Both the position numbers and the translations under genes were made by a program. From Haloarcula halophila (lineage in GTDB: Archaea > Halobacteriota > Halobacteria > Halobacteriales > Haloarculaceae), in contig NZ_CP119559.1 of NCBI RefSeq assembly GCF_029278565.1, forward strand, positions 2,294,001-2,358,000: a stretch of DNA of 64,000 bases. The letters run 5' to 3'. Positions 6,284 to 41,965 of this stretch are shown piece after piece. A model generated the notes under the pieces. The model searched no databases and was not told the origin of the DNA. It saw only the letters and a program-made list of their open reading frames with translations. Position 1 is the stretch's first letter. Every line of letters begins with the position of its first letter.

Positions 6284-7474
6284 ATGCACATCGATACCGC
6301 GGTCATCCTCGCTGCCGGCGAGGGGACCCGGCTCCAGCCGTTGACACGGAACCGGCCGAAGCCGATGTTACCGGCGGCGAACCGGCCGATCCTCGAACAC
6401 GTCTTCGACGCCCTGGTCGAGGCCGGTATCGAGCGGCTGGTCGTCGTCGTCGGGTTCAAACGCGACCGCGTCCAGAACCACTTCGGCCCCGCCTACCGCG
6501 ACGTTCCAATCACCTACGTCCGCCAGGAGAAACAACTCGGGAGCGGGCACGCCCTCGCACAGGCTCGGAGCGAGGTAGACGGTCCCTTACTCGTCCTGAA
6601 CGGCGATCGTCTCATCGACGCCGGGACGATCGAGGCCGTCGATACATCCTTCGCCGAGACCGGTGACCCGAGTATTGCGGTCACCGAACGGCGAGACACC
6701 AGCCGGTACGGGGCCGTCGAACTGCGCGACGGCGACATCGCGGACTTCGTCGAGAAACCGAGCGACGACGGCTACCGGCTGATCAACGCCGGCGTGTACG
6801 CGTTCCCCGAGAGCATCTTCCAGTCCATCGAGGAGACGCCACGCACGGCCGGGGAACTGGGGATCACCGACACCATCGAGCGCTTGGTCGCTCACGAACG
6901 GGTCCGCGGTGTCGAGGTCGACGGGATGTGGGTCGACGCGACCTATCCGTGGGACCTGTTGACCGTCGCCCGCGAAGTCCTCGAGCGCGGGCAGGTCACC
7001 GAGACCGAACGTGATGACGGCGTCTGGGTCGACGACGACGCCAACGTCCACGAGGAAGCCGTCCTGCGTGGCCCGGTCGTCGTCGGGCCGGACTGTGAGA
7101 TCGGGCCGGACGCCGTCGTCGGTCCACACACCGCCGCGGGCGCGAACGTGACGATCGGTGCCAACGCGGTCGTCCAGCGGTCGGTACTCGACGCGGACAC
7201 GCGTGTCGGCCCGGGGTCGACACTGCTCGATACGGTCACCGGACAGGACGTGGATCTGGGCGCGAGCACGGTCGTTCCGGGTGGGACCGCCGACGTCCAG
7301 GTCGGGACCACCGTCTTCGAGAACCAGCGTCTCGGTGCCGTCATCGGCGACTGGACGACCGTCGACGGTGCCGCAAGTATCGCACCGGGGACGCTGATCG
7401 GCACGGACGCGACGCTGCACACGGGCGTCACGGTCGACAGCAACGTCGGCGAGGGCGTGGAGGTGACCCGCTGA
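6284..7474 (+). CDS. glmU: GlmU-like bifunctional sugar-1-P nucleotidylyltransferase/acetyltransferase
   Basis: Expected to acetylate glucosamine-1-P and transfer UMP to give UDP-GlcNAc. Residues 1 to about 230 form the nucleotidyltransferase domain (ILAAGEGTRLQPLTRNRPKP, then VLNGDRLIDAG and FVEKPSDDGYRLINAG). The C-terminal third is a left-handed beta-helix of hexapeptide repeats (GPVVVGPDCEIGPDAVVG...). The length of 396 aa fits archaeal GlmU-like enzymes. The stop overlaps the glmS start by one base, so the two are one operon making GlcN-6-P and then UDP-GlcNAc. An alternative is a glucose-1-P nucleotidyltransferase with a beta-helix; the GlmS neighbour favours GlmU. Confidence 0.88.
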   Translation: MHIDTAVILAAGEGTRLQPLTRNRPKPMLPAANRPILEHVFDALVEAGIERLVVVVGFKRDRVQNHFGPAYRDVPITYVRQEKQLGSGHALAQARSEVDGPLLVLNGDRLIDAGTIEAVDTSFAETGDPSIAVTERRDTSRYGAVELRDGDIADFVEKPSDDGYRLINAGVYAFPESIFQSIEETPRTAGELGITDTIERLVAHERVRGVEVDGMWVDATYPWDLLTVAREVLERGQVTETERDDGVWVDDDANVHEEAVLRGPVVVGPDCEIGPDAVVGPHTAAGANVTIGANAVVQRSVLDADTRVGPGSTLLDTVTGQDVDLGASTVVPGGTADVQVGTTVFENQRLGAVIGDWTTVDGAASIAPGTLIGTDATLHTGVTVDSNVGEGVEVTR

Positions 7475-9270
7475 TGTGTGGCATCATCGGCTGTGTCGGC
7501 CGCGGCGACGAGACGCTCGACACGCTCGTCCACGGGCTCTCGAAACTGGAGTACCGGGGCTACGACTCCGCTGGCGTCGCCCTGACGAGTACGGACGAAC
7601 CGGTCAGTATCTGCAAGAACGCCGGCGACATCGACGGGCTCAAACAGGCGCTGGAGAGCGTCTCGCTGTCGGGCGAGGTCGGGATCGGCCACACGCGCTG
7701 GAGCACACACGGCCCGCCGACCGACGCGAACGCCCACCCTCACCAGGACTGTCACGGCTCGGTCGCCGTCGTCCACAACGGCATCATCGAGAACTACCAG
7801 GAACTCCGTGACGAACTCGTCGGGGCCGGTCACACGTTCACCTCCGACACCGACACCGAGGTGATCCCCCACCTCATCGAGCGGGAACTGGAAGACGGTG
7901 CCAATCCCGAAGCCGCCGTCCGGAGCGCCGTCGCGCAACTCGACGGGAGCTTCGCCGTCGCGGTGGTCGTCGCCGGCACCGAATCCGTCTTCGCCGCGCG
8001 CAACGACTCGCCGCTGGTGTTGGGCCTGACCGAGGAGGCGACCTTCCTCGCCAGCGACGTTCCTGCCTTCCGTGATTTCACCGACCAGGTCGTCTATCTC
8101 GACGACGGGGAGTTCGCCCGCCTCGACGCCGACGGCTGGACGGTCACCGACACCGCGGGGACCGTCGTCGACAAGGAGGTCAACACCGTCGAGTGGGACC
8201 CCGAGGAGACCGGCAAGAGCGGTTACGACCACTACATGCTCAAGGAGATCCACGAGCAGCCACGGGCGCTCCGACAGTGTCTCCGCGGCCGGGTCGACGA
8301 GCTATCCGCGAGCGTGGACATCGGCGACCTGGGTGACCTCTCGCCGACGGGCGTCCAGTTCGTCGCCTGTGGGACATCCTATCACGCGGCGCTGTACGGC
8401 GCCCAACTGTTCCAGGCCGCCGGCATCCCTGCCCAGGCGTTCCTCGCCAGCGAGTACGCGACCGGTGTCCCACCGATCGGCGATGCGCTGGTCGTCGGCG
8501 TCACCCAGAGCGGCGAGACGGCCGACACCCTCTCGGCGCTCCGGGAGGCCCGCAGTCGCGGCGCGCGTACCCTGGCCGTGACCAACGTCGTCGGCTCGAC
8601 GGTCGCCCGCGAGTGTGACCACGCGCTGTACATCCGTGCCGGCCCCGAGATCGGCGTCGCCGCGAGCAAGACCTTCGCCTCGCAACTGGCCGCGCTGAAC
8701 CTGCTCGCGTTGGGGACGACCTCGACCGACGACACCCGCGAGGTCATCGCCGCGCTCCGGGACTTGCCCGGACAGGTCCAGTCGATCCTGGACAGCTCGG
8801 CGGCCGAGGCGGTCGCCGAACTGTACCAGGACGCCGACGCCTACTTCTTCATCGGCCGGGGCCAGCAGTTCCCCGTCGCGCTGGAGGGCGCCCTGAAGAT
8901 GAAAGAGATTACCTACAAACACGCCGAAGGGTTTGCGGCCGGCGAACTCAAACACGGGCCGCTCGCGCTCGTGACCGAGAAGACGCCGGTCTTCGCGGTC
9001 GTGACCGGCGACGACGAGCGCGCTCGGAAGACCGTCGGCAACATCAAGGAGGTCGAAGCCCGCGACGCCCCTGTGGTCGCGGTGACCGACGGCCAGAACG
9101 ACGCTGCTCGGTACGCCGACGAGGTGTTGGAACTGCCCGAGACCCACCCGCGGGCCGCGGCCGTGCTGGCGAACATCCATCTGCAGTTGGTGTCGTATCA
9201 CACCGCAGCGTTGTTGGGTCGGCCGATCGACAAGCCGCGGAACCTGGCCAAGAGCGTGACGGTGGAGTGA
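7474..9270 (+). CDS. glmS: Glutamine--fructose-6-phosphate aminotransferase
   Basis: Makes glucosamine-6-phosphate from fructose-6-P and glutamine, the entry step to all amino sugars in this locus. The N-terminal Ntn glutaminase begins MCGIIGCVG with the Cys2 nucleophile, followed by LEYRGYDSAG, IGHTRWSTHG and HNGIIENY. Two SIS domains follow (FVACGTSYHAALYG; GVTQSGETADTL; FFIGRGQQFPVALEGALKMKE). It ends DKPRNLAKSVTVE, the conserved C-terminal loop. The length of 598 aa is normal. The ATG overlaps the glmU stop (translational coupling). It converges on 9278-9736 with 7 bp between stops. Confidence 0.97.
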   Translation: MCGIIGCVGRGDETLDTLVHGLSKLEYRGYDSAGVALTSTDEPVSICKNAGDIDGLKQALESVSLSGEVGIGHTRWSTHGPPTDANAHPHQDCHGSVAVVHNGIIENYQELRDELVGAGHTFTSDTDTEVIPHLIERELEDGANPEAAVRSAVAQLDGSFAVAVVVAGTESVFAARNDSPLVLGLTEEATFLASDVPAFRDFTDQVVYLDDGEFARLDADGWTVTDTAGTVVDKEVNTVEWDPEETGKSGYDHYMLKEIHEQPRALRQCLRGRVDELSASVDIGDLGDLSPTGVQFVACGTSYHAALYGAQLFQAAGIPAQAFLASEYATGVPPIGDALVVGVTQSGETADTLSALREARSRGARTLAVTNVVGSTVARECDHALYIRAGPEIGVAASKTFASQLAALNLLALGTTSTDDTREVIAALRDLPGQVQSILDSSAAEAVAELYQDADAYFFIGRGQQFPVALEGALKMKEITYKHAEGFAAGELKHGPLALVTEKTPVFAVVTGDDERARKTVGNIKEVEARDAPVVAVTDGQNDAARYADEVLELPETHPRAAAVLANIHLQLVSYHTAALLGRPIDKPRNLAKSVTVE

Positions 9271-12633: not shown

Positions 12634-13521
12634 TGGACGTCCTCGTCACTGGTGCGTGTGACTATATGAGGAGTGGCCTCCTGCTGCTACTCACCGCCGA
12701 TGATGGGGTTGACCTGTGATCGTTCTCGACGACCTCTCGAAAGGGTTGCCACGGGCCCTGTTCGCGATTCTCGACAGCATATTCGATTTTCGCCGCGGCG
12801 ACGTTCGGGAGTGCAGCGACGTTGAGAGTGCGAGGCGTGGTGTCAACCGTATGATTTGGCAAGTATTAGTGCAGTGAGTACCCACAACCACCGTGAGGCG
12901 ACCCTAGCCGCCAACTACGAGAAGATCGAGAACGTCTTGAACGCTGCCGGAACCCGGCGTCAAGTGGATGCTCTTCACCTCCTTGTGTAACATCTACGAG
13001 CGGGCGCTAAGTACCGACATTGACGAGACGGTTGACTCGGACCGATCAGCTCCTACGCATATTCGAAACCCCAGTTGGAGGATCTCCTGGTGGAGTACTG
13101 GGAGGGGGTCGATATGACCGGGACGGCGTTGCGGATGGCCACCAAGTACGGCCGCTCTCCGGGTGTCCGATTCAACCTCTTGGTCAACTACTTCGTCTTC
13201 CGCGCCCTGACCGGCTGACCGTTCACGGTGTACGGCGACGGCTCGAACTGGCGGCCGTTCGTACATGTACGAGACGCGGCACGGACATACTACGACTCCG
13301 TGCGACATCTCGATATATGGGACGCCTTCATGTACCATGTCGGGTCGAACGACGGCAACTATCACGTCGCCGAAACCACCGACGTCGGTGCCGAGGGGGT
13401 CGCCCCGGTCGACGTACCGTGTCTGGAAGACGAACACTCTGGACCGTCGTATCACGTCGACTTCGGCCGCCTCGAAGGGACCAAGTTCGAAACCGAGTGG
13501 ACGCTCCGTGATCCTGCTTAG
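12634..13521 (+). pseudogene. Decayed NAD-dependent epimerase/dehydratase
   Basis: Begins MDVLVTGACDYMRSG, a damaged Rossmann GxxGxxG. Pieces in different frames read VVLDDLSKGL, STHNHREATLAANYEK, FTSLCNIYERA (damaged SSxxxYG) and TALRMATKYGRSPGVRFNLLVNYFV. A long tail follows: TVYGDGSNWRPFVHVRDAAR and YHVGSNDGNYHVAE. Internal stops and at least two frameshifts make it non-functional. The tail resembles the SDR half of the CBS-SDR fusion at 21516-22922 (for example VHVRDAARAY and FNVGSNAQNYRIAE), so the two belong to one subfamily. Confidence 0.85.
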
Positions 13522-18581: not shown

Positions 18582-19564
18582 CGCTCTTGTGAAGCACGTT
18601 GTTGATTTTCAGAGGGCAGCGTCGAGAGCATGTTTGAGTGCTTCGTCACTTGGTTTTCTGTAGAGTTCGCAGCGGAGCTGAAAGGCTCTGAGATGCGGTG
18701 TTAGCTTGTCTTTTGACACTCCTCGGTGGGGCGAAAGCCACCGTCGCGTCAGCAACGCGTGGCTCTCGCAAGTGTTGACGTGGATGTCGCCGTCGCCGTG
18801 GACGACGTATTTTCGGGTGAATGCGTCGTCCTCTTCGAGCGGCTCGTAGGCCCGAAACCCGTCCGTATAGACGGTCAGCGACTCTTCGTCGTGGTCAGCA
18901 AGCAGGAGTCGGACGGTCGATTCGTTGGCGGATTTCGCTGGGACGACGTACCGATCGTCCGAGCCCCGATCGACCAGCGTGAACACCGGCGGTTTGTCCC
19001 CGTTGTACGATCCACGCCCGCGCGTAGACAGGCCAACGCGAGCGCGACTCCTGGTCGCGCTCGCGGCCTTTGAGACCGGCAGACACGTACACTTCGTCGA
19101 TTTCGACCGGTCCAGACAGCGTGATCGAAGGCGCGTCGAGCGCTCTGGCGAAGCGCTCGACGCGCCGTCTCACCGTCCTGTAGGAGAGATCGAGTTCCCC
19201 CCTCGATCTGCCGGATACTCGCGTTAAACCGTAAGAACACGTAGGTCGTGAAGAACCACTCTTTCAGCGAGAGCTTCGAGTGAGCGAAGATCGTGCCAGT
19301 CTTGTCGTTGAACGTGCGACCGCAATTCTTACACAAATATCGCTGATACACCCGATAGCTGCCGTTTCTGACCGTCAGGTCAGAACGGCAGCGGGGGCAC
19401 TCAACGCCGTCACGCCAGCGAACCTGTACCAGCAGGTCCGCTGCAGCCGATTCCGACACGAATCGGCTTACTGGGAACATATCGGGCACTGCTGGCGCGG
19501 TGCCCTTGCCCTCTTCGACTTTCAGCCGCAGCTCTCGCAATCAACAATCTACTTTGCAAGAGCG
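18582..19564 (-). mobile_element. IS1595-family insertion sequence (983 bp), transposase frameshifted
   Basis: Bounded by inverted repeats: CGCTCTTGTGAAGCACGTTG at the left end and the same type reversed at the right end (CGCTCTTGCAAAGTAGATTG on the minus strand). 8-bp direct repeats TTACCCGA flank both ends. It carries one transposase gene, broken by frameshifts. It lies between the stop of the sulfatase-like gene and the start of the ABC transporter gene, so it entered the intergenic region of a co-directional pair. Confidence 0.9.
18609..19540 (-). pseudogene. IS1595-family transposase, two frameshifts
   Basis: The N-terminal zinc ribbon is readable (VECPRCRSDLTVRNGSY, RYLCKNCGRTFNDKTGTIFA), followed by LSLKEWFFTTYVFLRFNAS. 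Then the frame changes near 19190. Frame two carries MRRRVERFARALDAPS and VEIDEVYVSAGLKGRERD (first DDE Asp). A third frame carries LVDRGSDDRYVVPAKSANES, VYTDGFRAYEPLEEDDAF, HVNTCESHALLTRRWLSPHRG and a natural C-terminus. All ISXO2-like DDE parts are present but in three frames, so the protein is not made intact. Confidence 0.88.
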
Positions 19565-21515: not shown

Positions 21516-22922
21516 ATGACGGTGGAGGTCTCCTCACTGATTGTCGATATCTCGTCCTCGCTCCGGGAAACGATGCAGGCGATAGACCAGACCGGGCTTG
21601 GGATCGCGTTCGTCACGGAGAATTCGGAACTTGTCGGTGTCGTCACGGACGGGGACATCAGGACGGGGATTCTCCGAGGGATGAGTATCGACGACCCGGT
21701 CGAACAGGTCGTCAACGACGATCCCATTTTACTCCGTAACTCGTGGGAGGACCAACAGCGACGGCGGAAACTTCGAAGACGGGACATCGAGTCGAAAGTC
21801 CGACACCATGGCTCCCTTGTCGTCCCCGTTATCGACGACCAACGGAGAGTCGTCGACTTCGAGTTCATCTCCGCAGACACCGAGATACTCAGCCGTCCAC
21901 AGTCCTACACTGGAAGTGTCTCGACCGTCCTCGTCATCGGCGGTGCTGGGTATATCGGCTCGGTCCTCTCTCGCTGTCTGCTCGAAGACGGCTACCGAGT
22001 TCGCGTCCTCGACAAGGCCGTCTACGGGACTGCGGGCATCAGCGACCTCCGTACGAACGACCGATTTACCTTCATCAAGGGCGACATGCGCTCGATAGAG
22101 ACGGTCAGCGAGGCGATCACGGGCGTCGACGCAGTCGTTCATCTCGGGGCGCTCGTCGGTGACCCTGCCTCCGAAATAGATCCCCAGAAGACGCTGGAGA
22201 TGAACTACCACTCGACCCGGATGATCGCGAACATCTGTAAGTACCACCAGATCAACCGGTTCATCTTCGCGTCTACCTGTAGCGTCTACGGAAAGAGTCA
22301 CGACGCTACGAAACTCCTGACCGAAGAAGATAGTCTCAATCCCGTCTCACTCTACGCGAAGACGAAGATCGAATCCGAGCAAGCGTTGCTCGATATGGCC
22401 GACGGGAACTTCTCACCAACGGTCTTTCGGATGGCGACGATTTACGGGCTCTCGCCACGAATGCGGTTCGACCTCGTCGTTAACATTCTCAGTGCCAAGG
22501 CACACTTCGAGAACACCATCCCGATCTTCGGTGGCGACCAGTACCGCCCGAACGTCCACGTCCGAGACGCTGCCAGAGCCTATATCGCCGCAATTGAGGC
22601 CCCGATAGACGACGTCGGTGGTGAGATATTCAACGTCGGATCGAACGCCCAAAACTATCGCATCGCGGAGGTCGGCAGGCAGATAGCCGATGTATTCCCT
22701 GATGCAGAGATTGACTTCCATCGCGATAAAGAAGATGACCGAAGCTACCAAGTCGACTTCTCAAAGATTCACGAGACTCTCGGGTACGAAGTCGAAGAGA
22801 CGATTCAGAGTGGGTGCTGGGAGATAAGGGATACCCTTGAAGTAGGTGAGTTTGCGGACTACACTACGGAACGGTACAGCAACTACAAGACCCTCGAAGA
22901 CGCACCGATTCTCGATATTTGA
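21516..22922 (+). CDS. CBS-domain pair fused to an extended SDR sugar-nucleotide epimerase/dehydratase
   Basis: A 468-residue two-part protein. Residues 1 to about 130 are a CBS pair: SLRETMQAIDQTGLGIAFVT, GVVTDGDIRTGILRGMS, DPILLRN and VPVIDDQRRVVDFE. The SDR part starts with VLVIGGAGYIGS (glycines from about residue 142), then DAVVHLGALVGDP, FASTCSVYG, the YAKTK catalytic Tyr/Lys pair, FRMATIYGLSPRMRFD and VHVRDAARAY. CBS pairs sense adenine nucleotides; in bacterial nonulosonic-acid loci a CBS pair is known fused to a nucleotidyltransferase (PtmE type), not to an SDR. neuB lies 73 nt downstream. It probably makes or epimerises a precursor sugar, perhaps with adenine-nucleotide control. Confidence 0.85.
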   Translation: MTVEVSSLIVDISSSLRETMQAIDQTGLGIAFVTENSELVGVVTDGDIRTGILRGMSIDDPVEQVVNDDPILLRNSWEDQQRRRKLRRRDIESKVRHHGSLVVPVIDDQRRVVDFEFISADTEILSRPQSYTGSVSTVLVIGGAGYIGSVLSRCLLEDGYRVRVLDKAVYGTAGISDLRTNDRFTFIKGDMRSIETVSEAITGVDAVVHLGALVGDPASEIDPQKTLEMNYHSTRMIANICKYHQINRFIFASTCSVYGKSHDATKLLTEEDSLNPVSLYAKTKIESEQALLDMADGNFSPTVFRMATIYGLSPRMRFDLVVNILSAKAHFENTIPIFGGDQYRPNVHVRDAARAYIAAIEAPIDDVGGEIFNVGSNAQNYRIAEVGRQIADVFPDAEIDFHRDKEDDRSYQVDFSKIHETLGYEVEETIQSGCWEIRDTLEVGEFADYTTERYSNYKTLEDAPILDI

Positions 22923-22995: not shown

Positions 22996-24030
22996 ATGCA
23001 GATAGATGGGCGTGTTATTGAACCGTACACAGACGCATACATCATCGCCGAAATCGGTTCGACGCACAACGGCGAGTTCGAGCGGGCCAAAAAGTCGATC
23101 GACGCTGCTGCTGCTGCCGGGGCGGACGCCGTCAAATTCCAGCTATTTCGCGCCGACGAAATGTACACTGACGCCGTCGACCAAGAGGTCTACGACCACG
23201 TCGTCAAGATCGAAGTCCCCTACGACTGGATTCCCGAACTGGCCGCGCACGCCGAAGAACAGGATGTGACATTTCTCACGACGCCGTTCGACACCGAGTC
23301 GGTTGACGAGCTCGATCCGTACGTTCCGGCGTTCAAGGTCGGCTCGTCTTCACTGAGTCACGTCGAGTTCATGCAACACTTGGCCGGGACTGGGAAACCG
23401 ATTCTCGCCTCGACGGGTGCTCAAGACCTCGACGACGTACGGGATGCACGCGATACACTGACCACGGCTGGCTGTTCGGAGTTCGCGTTTCTCCACTGTG
23501 TGTCAGCGTATCCAACCCCGCTGGAAGATATCAACGTCCGCGCAGTCGCCACACTCCGTGAGGAATTTGGCGACCCAGTTGGCTTCTCGGATCACACGCT
23601 CGATCCGGGTACAGCCCCGACCGCTGCTGTCGCGCTCGGAGCATCCATCGTCGAGAAACACTTCACGCTCGACCGGTCACAGGACGGTCCCGACCACTCT
23701 CACTCGCTCGAACCGGACGAGTTTGAGACGATGGTCGACGCGATTCGCGCGACCGAACGAGCGCTTGGCACCGGAGCGGTCACTATCACCGACATCGAGC
23801 GTGATTGGTACGAGGACGCACGCCGAAGTGTCCAAGCAACGCGTGATCTCTCGGCGGGCGAGACTATCACGTCCGACGATGTCGGGGTCCATCGCTCCGT
23901 TGGAAAGCGACGTGGCGTCGACGCCAAGCAAATCGACACGGTCCTCGGAGCTACGCTTGTCGAACCCGTGGCCGAGGGTGACGGAATCACCGAAGACCTT
24001 ATCGAACGCGACGGGGAATTATCCGATTGA
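22996..24030 (+). CDS. neuB: Nonulosonic acid synthase (NeuB/LegI/PseI family)
   Basis: Condenses phosphoenolpyruvate with a six-carbon amino sugar to make a nine-carbon sialic-acid-like sugar. The TIM barrel has AEIGSTHNGEFERAKK, GADAVKFQLFRADEMY, TPFDTESVDEL, KVGSSSLSH, HCVSAYPTP, GFSDHT and IVEKHFTLDRSQDGPDHSHS. A C-terminal SAF (antifreeze-like) domain starts at about residue 280 (ARRSVQATRDLSAGETIT). The length of 344 aa is normal. Sequence alone does not separate sialic, legionaminic and pseudaminic synthases. It is followed by a GT4 and a SpsF-like cytidylyltransferase, which fit activation and transfer. Confidence 0.93.
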   Translation: MQIDGRVIEPYTDAYIIAEIGSTHNGEFERAKKSIDAAAAAGADAVKFQLFRADEMYTDAVDQEVYDHVVKIEVPYDWIPELAAHAEEQDVTFLTTPFDTESVDELDPYVPAFKVGSSSLSHVEFMQHLAGTGKPILASTGAQDLDDVRDARDTLTTAGCSEFAFLHCVSAYPTPLEDINVRAVATLREEFGDPVGFSDHTLDPGTAPTAAVALGASIVEKHFTLDRSQDGPDHSHSLEPDEFETMVDAIRATERALGTGAVTITDIERDWYEDARRSVQATRDLSAGETITSDDVGVHRSVGKRRGVDAKQIDTVLGATLVEPVAEGDGITEDLIERDGELSD

Positions 24031-25244: not shown

Positions 25245-25979
25245 TCACTCGACGAGATGCTCGTTGAGGCGGTAGAGTTCCTGCTGATCGACACAGTTCA
25301 TAATCGTCGCCGATGGGATAATTTTCCCCGCCGAGCAGTGGTCGTACACTTCGCGGATGAGTTCGTAGTCGTCGGCGTGGTCGAGCGTCAACCGTCGCTC
25401 GACACGGTTCTGGAGACTTTCGTCGTCGAATACGTCGGTTGACGTAACGTTTTCCAGGTCGAACTCTTCGGGGAACTCTCTGTAGTACGGTGTGACGTGC
25501 TCGCGATGGTAGGTCGTCTCGGCATTGGCTCGCACCCGTTTGAAGCTCTCTCGTGTGAATGCCTCACATCCCCATCCCAGCGGGAACGTGCGCGGCATCG
25601 AGTTTGACACGTAGTCGACGGCCTCCCGTTCGAGTGATTCGACCACACCGTCGGTCACCTCGGGCGGGATGAGCGGCCGGTCGCCGCACATCCGGACGAT
25701 AGTGTCCGGTTCGACGGTCTCGGTGGCGCGGTAGAGCCGCTCCAGTACGTCCGTTTCTGACCCGCGGAACACGTCGACACCCGCACGTTGGGCGTATCGT
25801 TCGAGGATGTCGTCTGCAGGCTGATCTGACGTGGCGACGATCACCTCGTCGACTCGCTCGGCCGCTTTCGTCCGCGCTATGACGCGTTCGATGACGGGCG
25901 TCCCTGCCAATGGGAGCATCATCTTTCCCGGGAGACGGGACGATCCCATTCGTGCCTGGATGATTGCGAGAACGTCCAT
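25245..25979 (-). CDS. SpsF-like cytidylyltransferase (CMP-sugar synthetase family)
   Basis: A 244-residue protein of the CTP-transferase family: VLAIIQARMGSSRLPGKMMLPLAGTPVIERV at the N-terminus (mononucleotide-binding loop), EVIVATSDQPADDILE, VFRGSETDVLERLYRA, IVRMCGDRPLIPPEV and LDHADDYELIREVY. SpsF/NeuA relatives activate sugars, commonly nonulosonic acids, as CMP-sugars. Its convergent position 10 bp from the GT4 and close to neuB supports a role as the CMP-nonulosonate synthetase. No C-terminal phosphatase domain is seen. Confidence 0.85.
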   Translation of the reverse strand: MDVLAIIQARMGSSRLPGKMMLPLAGTPVIERVIARTKAAERVDEVIVATSDQPADDILERYAQRAGVDVFRGSETDVLERLYRATETVEPDTIVRMCGDRPLIPPEVTDGVVESLEREAVDYVSNSMPRTFPLGWGCEAFTRESFKRVRANAETTYHREHVTPYYREFPEEFDLENVTSTDVFDDESLQNRVERRLTLDHADDYELIREVYDHCSAGKIIPSATIMNCVDQQELYRLNEHLVE

Positions 25980-26099: not shown

Positions 26100-27158
26100 A
26101 TGCGTAGCCGTGTACTCTCGGGTGCTTCTATTCAGGAATGGTACAAATATTATGATTCGCTTTCCAGTGGTGGAGCGTATCACAATCCAGCATATCTTGA
26201 CCTTCTCGCCGGGAATTTTGAATCCCCCGATGAACAGATCGAACTGTTTGTGCTAGAGGACGGTGATGATTACGTGTACTATCCATACTTTCGTCGGTCG
26301 TTAGCCTATGCTTCTGTCACCTCAGACGAGTACGATTTGTCCAACTTCTCTGATATCGTGTCTTCGTGGTACTATGGCGGCCCGCTCCTCTCGTCGAACA
26401 ACTGTGAATCTCTGGTTGAGGAATTTGTAGACTCGTTTTCCGACTATTGTGACCGAGAAAACATCGTCAGTGAATTCGTTCGGTTCGACCCAAATCTGTG
26501 TAATCACGAGGTGTTCGACGACCTCTCGTCAGTTTGTAATCGCCAAACGGTCTATGTCGACCTGACCAAGTCGACCAAGACGCTGTGGGACGAATTCGAA
26601 AAGCGAAATCGGAATGCGATCCGTCAAGCACAGGAGGCTCCAATACAGATCATGCCCGCGACAGAGACTTTTCACTACGAATCACTCTATCGTATCTATC
26701 GTGAGGCGATGGAAGCGAGAGGTGCCTCGAAGCATTATGAGTTCTCAGATAGATTTTTTGACCAATTGCGCGAGCTTGAGCTCTCTGAATATATGATTGC
26801 GCTATACGAGGGTGAAGTTATTGGCGGATCGATTGTGGTCTACGAAGACGGTGTCGCTCATGATTATCTGCGTGCGTCCGATCCCAAATACTGGGATATG
26901 CGAGTGAACAATTTGCTTTGTTACGAGACGATGATGGAGATGCGTGACCGAGGTGTAACACGGTTCGATTTCCAGGGTGGGAGACCTGGTGTATTCAAAT
27001 TCAAAAAAGCGTTCTCCCCTGACCGGGGTGAGTTCCATATCAGCCGTAGAACACACAATCAGGAGGTGTATGACCATCTTTCTGCTCGAGCCAGGCAACA
27101 GGGTATCGACACAGATTCGAATTATTTTCCAGCATACCGCCGGGATTTGAGCAACTGA
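26100..27158 (+). CDS. FemAB/GNAT-fold acyl- or aminoacyltransferase
   Basis: A 352-residue protein with two GNAT-like halves. The second carries LWDEFEKRNRNAIRQAQEAP (the FemAB-type 'k.R..ir.a' segment), YEGEVIGGSIVVYEDGVAHD, LRASDPKYW and the typical C-terminal block VTRFDFQGGRPGVFKFKKAF. FemAB relatives in glycan loci N-acylate amino sugars. Here it sits between the nonulosonic acid genes and an aminotransferase, so N-acylation of a 4-amino sugar is plausible. Its base composition is clearly more AT-rich than the neighbouring SpsF gene, which suggests separate acquisition. Confidence 0.8.
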   Translation: MRSRVLSGASIQEWYKYYDSLSSGGAYHNPAYLDLLAGNFESPDEQIELFVLEDGDDYVYYPYFRRSLAYASVTSDEYDLSNFSDIVSSWYYGGPLLSSNNCESLVEEFVDSFSDYCDRENIVSEFVRFDPNLCNHEVFDDLSSVCNRQTVYVDLTKSTKTLWDEFEKRNRNAIRQAQEAPIQIMPATETFHYESLYRIYREAMEARGASKHYEFSDRFFDQLRELELSEYMIALYEGEVIGGSIVVYEDGVAHDYLRASDPKYWDMRVNNLLCYETMMEMRDRGVTRFDFQGGRPGVFKFKKAFSPDRGEFHISRRTHNQEVYDHLSARARQQGIDTDSNYFPAYRRDLSN

Positions 27159-28091: not shown

Positions 28092-29252
28092 ATGTGCATG
28101 GACGAACGGGTAACTGTCGCCGAACCGATTATTGGCGAGGAAGAACGCGAGAACGTTGACCACGTTCTCGACAGCGGACGGTTTCTACAGGGGCCGTACG
28201 TCAAGGCGTTCGAAGACAAGTGGGCGGATTTCGTCGGCGTCGACCACGCGGTCGCCGTGACCAACGGCACGACGGCGATCCAGCTAGCGCTGAACGCGCT
28301 GGGTCTACAACCTGGGGACGAGGTGATCGTCCCCAGTCTCACGTTCGGGTCGACAGCGACTGCCGTCGTCCATCAGGCAGGGGTCCCTGTCTTCGCCGAT
28401 ATCGACGCCGAAACGTATACCCTGGATCACACCGATCTGGAACGGTGTCTCTCCGACCGAACTGAAGCCATCCTCCCGGTGCATCTATATGGCCATCCTG
28501 CGGAGATGGATGAAATTGTCTCGTTCGCCAGGAAGCACGATCTCGCTGTTGTCGAGGACGCTGCACAGGCACACGGCGCTCGATACAGGGGTTCGGTCGT
28601 GGGTAGTATCGGTGATGTCGGCTGTTTCTCATTCTATGCGACGAAGAACATCACCACTGGCGAAGGGGGGATCGTGACGACTGACGACACTGATCTCGCC
28701 GAGCGAATTCGTCTCCTTCGTAGCCACGGGATGGAGACCCGGGATAACCACATCGATTTGGGCTATAACTATCGAATGAGCGAACTCAATGGGGCAATCG
28801 GGACCGAACAGATAGACCGTCTCTCCGGCTTCAATCAGCGTCGGCGAGCAATCTCCGAACGGCTGTTCGACGAACTCGCGGATGTAGAGTGGTTGACTCC
28901 CGCAACAGTCCGTCCTTACGTTGAACACGCCTACTTCTGGGCACCGTTCGAAATCGACACCGACGCCATCGGGAAGACCGGAAAAGATGTCTGGCGTGAC
29001 CTTGACGAGCGCGGTGTCGAGACTCGCCACCGATACACCGAACCACTCTACAAACAGCCGGTCTTCCAGGAACATCGCGGCTTCAACAGCGACTTTCCCT
29101 GGAGCGAGAATCCACGCGACCACGCGTACGACTTGGAGCTAGAGACGGTCGAACAGGTCGCCGGCAATATGATCGGACTCCCGAATCACCCGAGCCTTAC
29201 GGACGAGGAGGTCGCCCGTGTCGTCTCGGTCGTTCAGGAGTATGGAACATGA
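28092..29252 (+). CDS. DegT/DnrJ/EryC1/StrS sugar aminotransferase
   Basis: A 386-residue PLP enzyme that aminates a keto-sugar nucleotide. Signatures: VDHVLDSGRFLQGPYVKAFE, AVTNGTTAIQLALNALGL, PGDEVIVPSLTFGSTATAV, PVHLYGHPAEMDEI, VEDAAQAHGARY (Asp contacting PLP) and FSFYATKNITTGEGGIV with the PLP-binding Lys, then SHGMETRDNHIDLGYNYRMS. ATGs at 28092 and 28098 are both possible. It likely supplies the 4-amino group of a dideoxy or nonulosonic precursor; the 4-dehydro sugar would come from an SDR in the locus. Confidence 0.93.
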   Translation: MCMDERVTVAEPIIGEEERENVDHVLDSGRFLQGPYVKAFEDKWADFVGVDHAVAVTNGTTAIQLALNALGLQPGDEVIVPSLTFGSTATAVVHQAGVPVFADIDAETYTLDHTDLERCLSDRTEAILPVHLYGHPAEMDEIVSFARKHDLAVVEDAAQAHGARYRGSVVGSIGDVGCFSFYATKNITTGEGGIVTTDDTDLAERIRLLRSHGMETRDNHIDLGYNYRMSELNGAIGTEQIDRLSGFNQRRRAISERLFDELADVEWLTPATVRPYVEHAYFWAPFEIDTDAIGKTGKDVWRDLDERGVETRHRYTEPLYKQPVFQEHRGFNSDFPWSENPRDHAYDLELETVEQVAGNMIGLPNHPSLTDEEVARVVSVVQEYGT

Positions 29253-35261: not shown

Positions 35262-36281
35262 ATGATGCCAATCAATGTGTCCGTCTCGGAGCGTCGGGCC
35301 GCGAATCTGCTGGCACAGATTCTCTGGCGTGACGGCGTCTATTGCCCGCGCTGCTGTGGCGAATCTGTGATTCGGTACGGCAGCTATCGAGTGTTTTCAA
35401 CGGTATCTGTGTGAGGATTGCGGCCGCACATTCAACGACAAGACGGGCACTGTCTTCGAGTACTCGGCGATACCGCTCAGGAAGTGGTATCTTGCCGTCT
35501 ACACCTATATCCGACTGAACGTCAGTATCAGACAACTGGACGCTGAACTCGCTGTCACCTACAAGACGGTCTACCGGCACGTCCAGCGCTTCCTGCGGGC
35601 GCTGGACGCGCCTCGGCCACCGCTCGAAGGCCCAGTCGAGATCGACGAGCTGTATGTTTCCGCCGGGAAGAAGGGCCGCGAGCGCGACCGCCCGTCGCGC
35701 TCGCGCGGCCTGTCCACGTGCGGCCGTAGAACGTATCACGAAGACAAGCCGCCGGTGTTCATCCTCGCTGACCGCGGGAGTGGAGAGACGTACGTTCACC
35801 CGGCGAAAGCCGCCGAGGAATCGACGATTCGACTCCTGCTTGACGACCGTCAGCAGGAGTCGCTGACCGTCTATATTGACGGCTTTCGAGCGTACGAACC
35901 CCCCTCGACGGCGACGACGCCTTCGACCGGCAATACGTCGTCCACGGCGATGGTGAATACGCTGCTGGAGACGTCCACGTCAACACCTGCGAGAGCCACG
36001 CGTCGCTGGAGTGATCACTGGAACTATTGAATATTCAGCGAAGTGCGCTACAGCCATTGGCTCCAGGTGAAAACAACCCTATGCTTTCACTGGGGCTCTC
36101 ACTCGTCTCAGCACTGTATTCAGTCCTTGCGCATACCACTCACGCGACGGTGGCTCCCGCCCCATCAAGGCGTCTCCAAAGACAAGCTCACACCCTACCT
36201 CAGAGCGCTCCAGCTACGGAAGTAAGTCCGCCGCAGACCCGGCGACGAAGCGCTCAAGACCATCCTTGAAACTGCGCTATG
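35262..36281 (+). pseudogene. IS1595-family transposase, frameshifted and interrupted
   Basis: Fragments in order: SERRAANLLAQILWRDGVYC, RCCGESVIRYGSYRVF, a frameshift near 35395 (about one extra base), then YLCEDCGRTFNDKTGTVFEY, VEIDELYVSAGKKGRERD, FILADRGSGETYVHPAKAAE and VYIDGFRAYEP. After CESHASL the 133-bp element intervenes, and TRRWLPPHQGVSKDKLTPYL continues exactly where it would if the insertion were removed. The C-terminus ends GDEALKTILETAL. Confidence 0.88.
36009..36141. mobile_element. 133-bp miniature element, copy 2
   Basis: Identical to copy 1 except at 4 positions. Removing exactly these 133 bp rejoins the transposase frame (HASL/TRRW), so insertion left no target duplication. 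The target CGTCGC-TGAC-GCGACG is itself an inverted repeat and the element sits in its loop. Confidence 0.85.
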
Positions 36282-39142: not shown

Positions 39143-40553
39143 CATCCGCATTCGGTTAAGACACGAAACCGAGTGACAGCGCTCTGTTGATGTGGTTATT
39201 GCTGTAGACCGCATGGGGAGAAGTTGTGAAACCAGATTTCTCCCCAGATGTTGTACGACGGCGGTTGACTTCCCTGTTTCCAGCAGAGCTTATCGACGAC
39301 CTCGCCCGCGAGCGCGAGGTCGTCGAACGGCATCGAACACTTGACGTTACGATGTTCGTCTGGACGCTCATCGCGGGCTTCGCCTCTGGCGGCGAAGCAC
39401 GCTCCATCGCTGCATACCGTCGATCCTATAACATCGTCACTGGGCACGGACTCTGTCCATCGATCTTCTACGACCGGTTTACCGAGGACGTTGCCGATCT
39501 TCTTGGCGACCTCCTCGAACACGCTGTCGAGGAGGTCGCCGTCCCACACCATCTCTCACCAGCCTTCGAGCGATTCCGTGATGTTGTCGCAGTTGACGCT
39601 ACTATCGTCCGATTACATCGGTTCCTGTCGGCGTTTCCAGCAACCCACGAGGGCGTCTCTGGTCTCCAACTCAATCTTGTTCATCACGTGACCGAGCAGT
39701 CGGTGATCTCGGCCGAGATCACCGACGAGCGTACCCACAAGAGTACGCTGTTCAAAACCGGCGCATGGATGGGTGGACGGCTGTTTCTGCTTGATTTGGG
39801 CTTTTTCAAATATCGACGGTTCGCGCTGATTGATGAAAATGACGGCTTCTTCGTGAGCCGTCTCAAGCGAAGCGCTAATCCGCTAATTACCGAGGAACTG
39901 AAGGAATGGCGCGGCCACGCCATTCCGTTGGTCGGAAAGCGAGTATTCGACGTTGTTGACAGGCTTGACCGGGAGGAAATCAATGTTACAGTCGAAGTAT
40001 CCGTCGAGCGGCGGCCCTACGATGGGAACCAATCGGTGACGCCCAAGGAGTTTCGAGTCGTCGGCGTCCGCGACGAGGACGCCGACGACGGCTACCGCCT
40101 GTACATTACGAATCCGCCTAGTGAAGAGTTCAGATTAGGTGCAGTGAAAGCGTTGTACCGTGCTCGGTGGTCCGTTGAATTGCTGTTTCGTGAGTTGAGG
40201 TCTCGGTACGAACTAGGGGCATTCCAGTCTGAGAAAGAGCATATCGTTCGAATACAGGTGTTGGCGGCTCTGCTGACACTGGTGGTCAGCAGAGCCCTTC
40301 TGCGGGTGTTCATCAACCAGGCCAGTGAATGCCAAGATGGTGTGACGTTTCCAGCAGAACGCTGGGCGACCGACCGGAAGGTCGTCGCCCAGCTTGTACT
40401 CCTCTAAATCGCAGCCAGCTACGGGTATCTCCGGCCAAATCTAGCCGAATTCTTGTATCGTGAGGCACAGCAACCAGCTCCATCTCGGCTACGCTGCTTG
40501 GGGAGGTGACTGCAGAGCTATGCAGCGGTTTCTGAGCTTAACCGAATACGATG
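39143..40553 (+). mobile_element. ISH8-type insertion sequence (IS4 family), 1411 bp
   Basis: Terminal inverted repeats CATCCGCATTCGGTTAAG and (minus strand, right end) CATCGTATTCGGTTAAG. A 10-bp target duplication CTCCGCGGTC lies at 39133-39142 and 40554-40563. It encodes one transposase. The second ISH8-type element begins at the last base of the right duplication. Confidence 0.9.
39226..40407 (+). CDS. ISH8-type transposase with probable premature stop
   Basis: A 393-residue IS4-family DDE transposase starting at GTG (KPDFSPDVVRRRLTSLFPAE). It has FRDVVAVDATIVRLHRFL (first Asp region), TLFKTGAWMGGRLFLLDLGF, YRRFALIDENDGFFVSRLK and RWSVELLFRELRSRYELGAF (Glu of DDE). After AQLVLL a TAA at 40405 ends the frame. 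The following codons (SYGYLRPNLAEFLYREAQQ) continue the homology to the tail of the 40576-41880 transposase, so about 35 C-terminal residues are lost through a nonsense change. It may or may not still be active. Confidence 0.85.
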   Translation: MKPDFSPDVVRRRLTSLFPAELIDDLAREREVVERHRTLDVTMFVWTLIAGFASGGEARSIAAYRRSYNIVTGHGLCPSIFYDRFTEDVADLLGDLLEHAVEEVAVPHHLSPAFERFRDVVAVDATIVRLHRFLSAFPATHEGVSGLQLNLVHHVTEQSVISAEITDERTHKSTLFKTGAWMGGRLFLLDLGFFKYRRFALIDENDGFFVSRLKRSANPLITEELKEWRGHAIPLVGKRVFDVVDRLDREEINVTVEVSVERRPYDGNQSVTPKEFRVVGVRDEDADDGYRLYITNPPSEEFRLGAVKALYRARWSVELLFRELRSRYELGAFQSEKEHIVRIQVLAALLTLVVSRALLRVFINQASECQDGVTFPAERWATDRKVVAQLVLL

Positions 40554-40563: not shown

Positions 40564-41965
40564 ATTGGTCTTTAGTTAGCCCTCACACCTCGGTTGCGTC
40601 GCGGTAGCGAGCGTCTCTTGTAAGATCGGTCGTTGCTGGTGGATCTTCTGTGCATCTTCGATCAGCCGCTCCAACAGCGGCGGTGGCGAGTAGCCGAGAT
40701 ACTCACCGAGTTCGTGGAGGACAAGCTGGGCGTGCGACCGGGAGGTCGCCGCCCAGCGTTCTGGCGGAAACACGATCTCATCGTCAGCCTGTTCAGTGAC
40801 CAGGTCCAACAGCTCACGGCTCACCAGCAGTGACAGCAACGCTGTGTACAACAGAATTTCCACGACAGCCGGGTTGCTTGTGTCGCATTCGTCCAGTTCG
40901 TACTGCGTCTTCAGCTCACGGAACAATGTTTCTACCTCCCACCGACACCGATACAACGTTGCTAGATCCGCCGGCAAGAACTCTTCTCGAGGCAGATTCG
41001 TGATGTACAGGTGGTAGTCGTCGGCGTCCTCGTCGCGGACGCCGACGACGCGGAACCGCTTCGTATCCAGCGACCGCGTTCCCTCGTACTGCCCGCGCTT
41101 GAACTCCGCTTCGACTTCTACATCAACGTATTTCCGCGAGAGGTCACCGACCACATCGTGGATCTGCTCCCCCTCTAAGGGAATGGCGCGCCCGCGCCAT
41201 TCCCGTAATTCCGCCGTTATCACCGGATTCGCGTTCTGTTTCAGCCGACTCACGAAGTAGCCGTCGTTCTCGTCGATCAGCGTGAAGCGGCGGTACTTGA
41301 AGTACGCGCGATCGAACAGAACCAGCCGTCCGTGCAGCCACGATCCTGTCTTGAACAGTGTGCTGTCATGCGTTTTCTCGTCAGTTACGTCGATCCGTTC
41401 AATTGTCTGGTCGGTGGCGTTGTGGAGCAGGTGGAGCCGTGCTCCAGCCTGCTCCTCGTGGCGAGCTTCGTACTCCTCAGACAGAAACTCGTGCAACCGC
41501 AACACGGTTCCATCAGCGATCATCACGTCCCTGAAGCGGTCGATATCAACATCGACAGTGTCGGGAACAGCGACCTCGTCGAGCGCGGCCTCGACGAGGT
41601 CGCGGAGATACTCTGCGAGTGTCGGTGTTAGTCGATGGTAGGAGCCATCGGGCGAGAGTGGCTCGTCGGCTGTGGCGTTGTAGCTGCGTCTGAACCCAGC
41701 GAGTGTTCGGCTCTCGCCGGCGGCGAAGCCGAACACGAGCGCCCACACGAGGACAGGAACCTGCAGATCACGGTTACGTTCGACCACGCCGAGTTCCTCG
41801 GCGTGCTCTTCGAGGAATTCGGAGGGAAACAGTGTAGTGAGCCGACGCATGATTCTCGATGAGGAGGTTTTGGTGTGCACAGCCGTTACCTCCTCATTCC
41901 TCTCGAAAAGAACCCTCGATAAGACGCTGCTGTCACGCGGTTCCTCGACTAACTAAAGACTGATG
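40563..41965 (-). mobile_element. Second ISH8-type insertion sequence, intact transposase, 1403 bp
   Basis: Inverted repeats CATTGGTCTTTAGTTAG (left) and CATCAGTCTTTAGTTAG (right, minus strand). It abuts the previous element back to back. No 10-bp duplication is visible: GCTCCGCGGT on the left, TTTGAGCAAG on the right. This suggests a later deletion or recombination rather than a simple insertion. Confidence 0.85.
40576..41880 (-). CDS. ISH8-type (IS4 family) transposase, full length
   Basis: A 434-residue DDE transposase starting MHTKTSSSRIMRRLTTLFPS. Key blocks: FRDVMIADGTVLRLHEFLSE, TLFKTGSWLHGRLVLFDRAY, KYRRFTLIDENDGYFVSRLK, FRVVGVRDEDADDYHLYITN, RCRWEVETLFRELKTQYEL and a C-terminal tail (LGYSPPPLLERLIEDAQKI). 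It is open from end to end with no damage seen, so the element may be active. It shares the same family blocks as, but is distinct from, the 39226 transposase and the 32951 relic; the 32553 fragment resembles this one most. Confidence 0.92.
   Translation of the reverse strand: MHTKTSSSRIMRRLTTLFPSEFLEEHAEELGVVERNRDLQVPVLVWALVFGFAAGESRTLAGFRRSYNATADEPLSPDGSYHRLTPTLAEYLRDLVEAALDEVAVPDTVDVDIDRFRDVMIADGTVLRLHEFLSEEYEARHEEQAGARLHLLHNATDQTIERIDVTDEKTHDSTLFKTGSWLHGRLVLFDRAYFKYRRFTLIDENDGYFVSRLKQNANPVITAELREWRGRAIPLEGEQIHDVVGDLSRKYVDVEVEAEFKRGQYEGTRSLDTKRFRVVGVRDEDADDYHLYITNLPREEFLPADLATLYRCRWEVETLFRELKTQYELDECDTSNPAVVEILLYTALLSLLVSRELLDLVTEQADDEIVFPPERWAATSRSHAQLVLHELGEYLGYSPPPLLERLIEDAQKIHQQRPILQETLATATQPRCEG

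Follow-up and report, generated by a model that had tools for sequence, protein, structure and literature searches.

A CBS-domain pair fused to a Cj1427-like SDR: a candidate regulated NDP-sugar C4-dehydrogenase in nonulosonic-acid-type loci of archaea and bacteria

The mechanisms by which archaea and bacteria meter their sialic-acid-like surface sugars are mostly unknown. Among the enzymes described so far, Cj1427 is a GDP-heptose C4-dehydrogenase that works by a ping-pong mechanism, alpha-ketoglutarate re-oxidising the bound NADH (PMC10680097), and the known 4,6-dehydratases need additional acid/base residues, namely Asp-Glu, Asp-Lys or Glu (PMC8987622). In haloarchaea, formyl-legionaminic acid occurs in a Halorubrum glycan and the genes of Halorubrum PV6 run in the order legC-legB-legF (PMC6137143). 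Here we describe a haloarchaeal protein in which a pair of CBS domains precedes an extended SDR and we propose, with a probability of roughly 55%, that it is a CBS-controlled NAD-dependent NDP-sugar C4-dehydrogenase that replaces LegB in nonulosonic-acid (NulO)-type pathways; the ligand, the catalysis and the feedback are what we infer.

The fusion gene occupies positions 21516-22922 on the plus strand of the window (the whole 64,000-nucleotide stretch of Haloarcula halophila DNA that was analysed), starts with ATG and encodes 468 residues with no internal stop; it is intact. Pfam matches the Epimerase family (PF01370) to residues 138-375 (E 1.4e-45) and CBS (PF00571) to residues 9-51 (E 2e-4; 21.9 bits, narrowly missing the gathering score of 24 bits), and PF00571 is matched at E<=1e-3 by 29 of the 35 members of an alignment that holds the window protein and 34 relatives, all with the same CBS-SDR architecture. 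The full-length AlphaFold2 model made from this alignment (mean pLDDT 89.4) predicts both the CBS pair and the SDR fold. Because a structural search with the whole model covers the SDR part only, a separate model of the CBS part was made and searched: the N-terminal 135 residues alone give a pLDDT of 88.6, and solved CBS pairs are matched by this model at Z about 11-13 across 104-119 residues. By these models the N-terminus is a tandem CBS fold, which disposes of the concern, raised in the first-pass annotation, that this part might have no such fold; the CBS-SDR fusion which that annotation had read from the frame is borne out in both halves by the domain search and the models.

The CBS pair spans residues ~5-119 and has one canonical site, T44-DG-D47. 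The first, canonical repeat (21528-21674, residues 5-53, from the Pfam match at 9-51 and the models) carries the putative ligand-site signature T44-D-G-D47-I-R49 (21645-21662; alignments A2 and A3). The second (21732-21872, residues ~73-119) is too divergent for Pfam and is present in both structure models; it has no T/S-x-x-D motif, and its final helix is absent from the model. The two CBS motifs announced earlier for residues 1-130 are thus both there as folds, the T/S-x-x-D motif itself belonging to the first repeat only. A linker of low confidence (21873-21926, residues ~120-137, with pLDDT < 50 at 128-132) leads to the SDR domain (21927-22901, residues 138-462; PF01370), which, as annotated, is a complete extended SDR: it has the NAD-binding glycine motif GGAGYIG (21939-21959, residues 142-148), near-invariant in alignment A2, and the catalytic Y280-x-x-x-K284 (22353-22367), invariant in the same alignment. 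Between them lies the active-site loop STCSVYG (22272-22292, residues 253-259), with no Asp, Glu or Lys at the dehydratase acid/base positions. All these features are on the plus strand.

The SDR half is closest to Cj1427 in sequence and in fold. Cj1427 is its top solved relative by phmmer (1.9e-48; next match 4e-28) and its top fold match (6vo6/6vo8; Z 39.5, rmsd 1.7, 305 residues aligned, 34% identity), and Foldseek ranks it first as well (2e-29 against 2e-24 for the next family). By analogy, ping-pong oxidation at C4 with alpha-ketoglutarate is possibly the activity of the window SDR. The loop is STCSVYG or SSCSVYG in 37 of 37 CBS-fused rows of the tree set and in 46 of 47 otherwise-fused rows, LegB having STSETYG, and the acid/base residues that LegB and NDP-sugar 4,6-dehydratases carry in this S-T-x-x-x-Y-G loop are absent from all 37 CBS-fused rows; because of this absence the SDR is unlikely to be a dehydratase. 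Against the LegB model TIGR04180 the window protein scores 98 bits, for a cut-off of 475 bits. An epimerase or dehydratase step had been suggested for this enzyme: the latter is improbable in view of the loop, and a C4-dehydrogenase is a better fit than the former.

The genes around the fusion fit such a role. A neuB-type nonulosonate synthase with a SAF domain (22996-24030, plus strand; PF03102 5.6e-77, PF08666) starts 73 bp downstream, scoring under the equivalog cut-offs for NnaB and for PseI, and nearby is an SpsF/NeuA-like cytidylyltransferase (25245-25979, minus strand; PF02348 1.9e-36), a candidate CMP-nonulosonate synthetase and the single PF02348 match in its genome. With a NeuB-type synthase and a CMP transferase the locus is one of nonulosonic-acid biosynthesis, in agreement with the setting beside neuB pointed out at the start. 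Further along the plus strand come a GNAT/FemAB-type acyltransferase (26100-27158; PF13480), possibly an N-acyltransferase, and a DegT-family aminotransferase (28092-29252; PF01041 3.6e-114), a candidate partner of the SDR that is PseC/LegC-like, under the cut-offs, and lies 5 kb from the SDR, being adjacent in most relatives. NeuC/LegG (PF02350) and PseG (TIGR03590), which would provide the hydrolysing step, have no match across this genome; PF02350 is present in the four haloarchaeal relatives. Either the pathway is perhaps incomplete here or the hydrolytic step is achieved by other means, in a hypervariable island that bears transposases. Transposase-like ORFs or remnants, found by eye at 18609-19540, 35272-35799, 39226-40407 and 40576-41880, flank the region and suggest a mobile, hypervariable surface-sugar island. 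Upstream, at 6284-9270, a GlmU-like nucleotidyltransferase and GlmS lie side by side, as in one relative's cluster (G174, locus L041), and could supply amino sugar as there; in Halorubrum PV6, too, a nucleotidyltransferase gene adjoins glmS (PMC6137143).

A scan of GTDB genomes with the family alignment, of which the best 80 loci were taken, yielded 29 loci with a CBS part. An adjacent DegT aminotransferase is the neighbour to be expected if the enzyme forms a ketosugar, and an aminotransferase is found within 600 bp at 21 of the 29 CBS-fused loci and at 35 of 48 loci with another fusion. NeuB, NeuA or NeuC genes, on the other hand, are near 13/29 CBS-fused and 0/48 otherwise-fused loci (Fisher p 4e-7, relatedness ignored), an association that, like that between CBS motif and NulO genes described below, reflects few independent evolutionary events; at 16 of the 29 no NulO gene was seen within the flanking DNA, some contigs being short. 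NeuB, NeuC and NeuA-type genes surround the CBS-SDR/aminotransferase pair in G156 and G159 (one genus, G159 matching L049, Halomarina oriensis), G174 and G259, with formyltransferases too in part of them. No LegB-like ORF above 130 bits was detected near the CBS-fused loci, and among 56 NeuB-bearing haloarchaea not one has a LegB (TIGR04180) match that reaches the curated cut-off, 11 having weaker matches at 205-243 bits. In a Diapherotrites locus (L058, 2618-3994) the CBS-SDR is directly followed by an SpsF-like ORF of 459 residues, about twice the length of the window SpsF and perhaps fused to a further domain. We also considered whether the Halorubrum PV6 legB (HrrPV6_1047) might be a CBS-SDR, as its place between legC and legF had suggested; this is unsupported, judging from two genomes that are probably Halorubrum (G008 and G015), since both have NeuB and a LegB-like SDR (5 kb from NeuB in G008) and no CBS-SDR.

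The proposed C4-dehydrogenase would work as follows. By comparison with Cj1427, the SDR half would oxidise an NDP-sugar, probably one resembling NDP-GlcNAc, at C4 to give a 4-ketosugar, possibly with tightly bound NAD(H) that alpha-ketoglutarate re-oxidises; to go by gene adjacency, the DegT-type aminotransferase would then turn this ketosugar into a 4-amino sugar, glutamate becoming alpha-ketoglutarate. Because the aminotransferase regenerates alpha-ketoglutarate, the pair would be self-sustaining. As the neighbouring genes suggest, NeuC (absent here and present in relatives), NeuB and the CTP transferase would take the amino sugar to CMP-nonulosonic acid, CBS-SDR and aminotransferase thereby standing in for LegB and LegC, and the PtmE-type CBS pair, with a nucleotide-bearing ligand in its one canonical site, would control the committed step. 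Several observations weigh against this scheme: with neither NeuC nor PseG in its own genome the route is incomplete by known standards, the aminotransferase of the window is 5 kb away instead of adjacent, and the SDR substrate is not readable from sequence.

What the CBS half might sense is best approached through its relatives. Nucleotide binding is possible, given the signature T44-x-x-D47, and D45, I48 and R49 are invariant over 16 members from many phyla in alignment A3, in which CBS is mostly intact. With a CBS-half profile as query, PtmE-type nucleotidyltransferases, most of them from legionaminic clusters, reach 63-92 bits in their CBS part, compared with 32-46 bits for generic haloarchaeal CBS proteins; profile-profile comparison with the PtmE-type CBS (hhalign) gives E 1.8e-33, and the five plasmid matches of the CBS half are all PtmE-type nucleotidyltransferases. 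The analogy with PtmE drawn in the first-pass annotation is therefore sound. Among solved structures the KpsF-type CBS pairs 3k2v and 4o9k rank among the best matches by both profile and structure, and the CBS-only model fits 4o9k (Z 12.0) as well as the AMP-bound pair 2rif (Z 12.1). We take 4o9k to be a CBS pair complexed with CMP-Kdo; a literature search, thin in its coverage of subscription journals, found no publication for it.

The state of the motif follows the presence of NulO genes in haloarchaea, of which 56 of 292 genomes have NeuB. TDGDIR is intact in five genomes, all with NeuB and a PF02348 CTP transferase, and is eroded (TDERLR and similar) in eight Natrialbaceae-type genomes that retain the SDR, and also the aminotransferase in those whose flanks were read; neither NeuB nor the CTP transferase is found anywhere in these eight. 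Taken over all 35 aligned rows, the association is weaker (14/8 versus 2/11, Fisher 0.012) and has exceptions: two Omnitrophota loci keep NulO genes although their motif is altered (SDSEIR), and T/S-x-x-D is intact in eight CBS-fused loci with no NulO genes seen. On independent pairs it is not significant, the pairs being too few for the test to reach significance. Erosion of the CBS half in place, with loss of TDGD next to a strongly conserved SDR half, was seen at L014-L018, L021, L022, L025 (family f3), L051-L054 and L057, and the second repeat is shortened in L052, L054 and L057.

We tentatively favour CMP-nonulosonate as the ligand, and thus end-product feedback, over AMP, ADP or ATP: it matches the distribution of the CBS motif at least as well as adenine nucleotides do. 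An energy-charge sensor, that is, an adenine-nucleotide-binding CBS pair on the same dehydrogenase, is possible and somewhat less probable. CBS pairs of known ligand mostly bind AMP, ADP or ATP, and the fit of the CBS-only model to AMP-bound pairs such as 2rif agrees with it; such a sensor would nonetheless leave unexplained why the motif erodes in the eight genomes without NeuB and CTP transferase while the SDR persists, and why the nearest relatives of the CBS pair are found on enzymes of CMP-ulosonate pathways, the PtmE-type and KpsF-type ones.

The SDR half could instead be a C4-epimerase of the UDP-GlcNAc/GalNAc type, in which case the aminotransferase would serve another step. We consider this unlikely. 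Many epimerases follow Cj1427 among the best fold matches (7ys8, 6wjb and others, Z 36-37), the Y-x-x-x-K dyad is common to both classes, and the top NCBIfam match of the window protein is GalE, far under the cut-off; yet Cj1427 is clearly nearer in sequence and fold, and an aminotransferase conserved beside most loci of both fusion types needs a free ketosugar. The odds are poorer still for a CBS part that is a ligand-free structural or oligomerisation domain, which would account for its erosion in Natrialbaceae under a strongly conserved SDR and for the missing motif of the second repeat, but a spacer would not need D45, I48 and R49 to be invariant in 16 members from many phyla. Last, a noncanonical 4,6-dehydratase, a true LegB substitute whose product is 6-deoxy and leads to ordinary legionaminic acid, would suit the LegB position of the SDR in the pathway and the formyl-legionaminic acid of the Halorubrum glycan, and is very improbable since every dehydratase type in PMC8987622 needs an acid/base residue where the loop here is STCSVYG, and since in the two probable Halorubrum genomes the LegB-like SDR near NeuB is a protein of its own and CBS-SDR is absent; as a true 4,6-dehydratase the protein is rejected on its loop.

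The fusion is old and spans many phyla. Besides the 29 named-genome loci among the best 80, about a dozen haloarchaeal genomes carry CBS-SDR; the archaeal carriers comprise haloarchaea, Thermoplasmata, Desulfurococcales, Diapherotrites, Woesearchaeota, Aenigmatarchaeota, Pacearchaeota and Helarchaeota, and the bacterial ones Omnitrophota, Bacteroidota, Gemmatimonadota, Acidobacteriota, Zixibacteria, Chloroflexota and Patescibacteria. In a quick tree of 89 SDR halves (SH-aLRT support only) the CBS-fused rows cluster, only three label changes being needed; the fusion may have had a single origin, and the window SDR falls inside a fully supported group of 14 haloarchaeal CBS-fused rows. None of the 15 same-genus genomes sampled has a match; the gene is therefore patchy within the genus. 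This deep spread contradicts the earlier suggestion that the fusion may be recent. The resemblance of the decayed SDR at 12634-13521 to the SDR half, from which that suggestion was drawn, comes to ~35% identity at 13036-13509 only, no closer than to other SDRs, which makes the decayed copy uninformative on the age of the fusion, and a recent fusion derived from it is rejected. Viral carriage finds no support either, none of 64 viral-contig relatives aligning across the whole CBS part and nearly all matching the SDR part only. The other SDR relatives mostly have a different N-terminus, mainly transmembrane-like stretches as judged by eye. These form a second architecture, seen in Planctomycetota, Chloroflexota, Deinococcota and Armatimonadota (L068, L073, L076, L112 and others), usually beside a DegT aminotransferase and with NulO genes absent. 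The annotation had allowed that CBS-SDR might already be common and characterised: common it is, and no description was found. We found no paper that treats a CBS domain together with either legionaminic acid or a fusion to a nucleotide-sugar epimerase, subscription journals being thinly covered, and the architecture is widespread yet apparently without description in the literature searched.

A bolder and doubtful extension is that one type of CBS pair acts as a CMP-ulosonate sensor on KpsF (for Kdo), PtmE and CBS-SDR alike, together with a novel class of nonulosonates bearing a 9-hydroxyl. If so, early-step enzymes of CMP-activated ulosonic acid pathways would share a feedback-sensor module. 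Without dehydration the product would keep its 6-hydroxyl, which becomes the 9-hydroxyl of the predicted nonulosonate (5,7-diamino-3,5,7-trideoxy); we know of no nonulosonic acid class of this kind, and dehydrogenase-based nonulosonic-acid pathways, if real, thus predict sugars so far undescribed. A single purified protein could address both the ligand of PtmE-type CBS pairs and the existence of NulO routes that use a dehydrogenase instead of a dehydratase.

Set against known systems, the window protein compares as follows: (i), the arabinose-5-phosphate isomerases KpsF/GutQ/KdsD (4o9k, 3k2v, 3fna) have a CBS pair with a TDGD-L-R-R version of the motif, placed C-terminally on an isomerase of the Kdo pathway, whereas here the pair is N-terminal on an SDR; (ii), Cj1427 (6vo6, 6vo8), a GDP-D-glycero-D-manno-heptose C4-dehydrogenase, shares with the window SDR the S-P-R-M-R motif and a loop without dehydratase acid/base residues but has no CBS part, belongs to a heptose capsule pathway and is only 34% identical; (iii), LegB (NDP-GlcNAc 4,6-dehydratase, TIGR04180) is likewise an extended SDR that precedes a DegT-type aminotransferase in NulO clusters, and differs in the acid/base residue of its loop (STSETYG). 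The PtmE-type CBS-nucleotidyltransferases (for example Sulfitobacter L193, 351 residues) are also NulO-cluster enzymes with an N-terminal CBS pair; their catalytic, C-terminal half is a nucleotidyltransferase where CBS-SDR has its SDR, and their clusters usually contain LegB, which was not found near the CBS-SDR genes.
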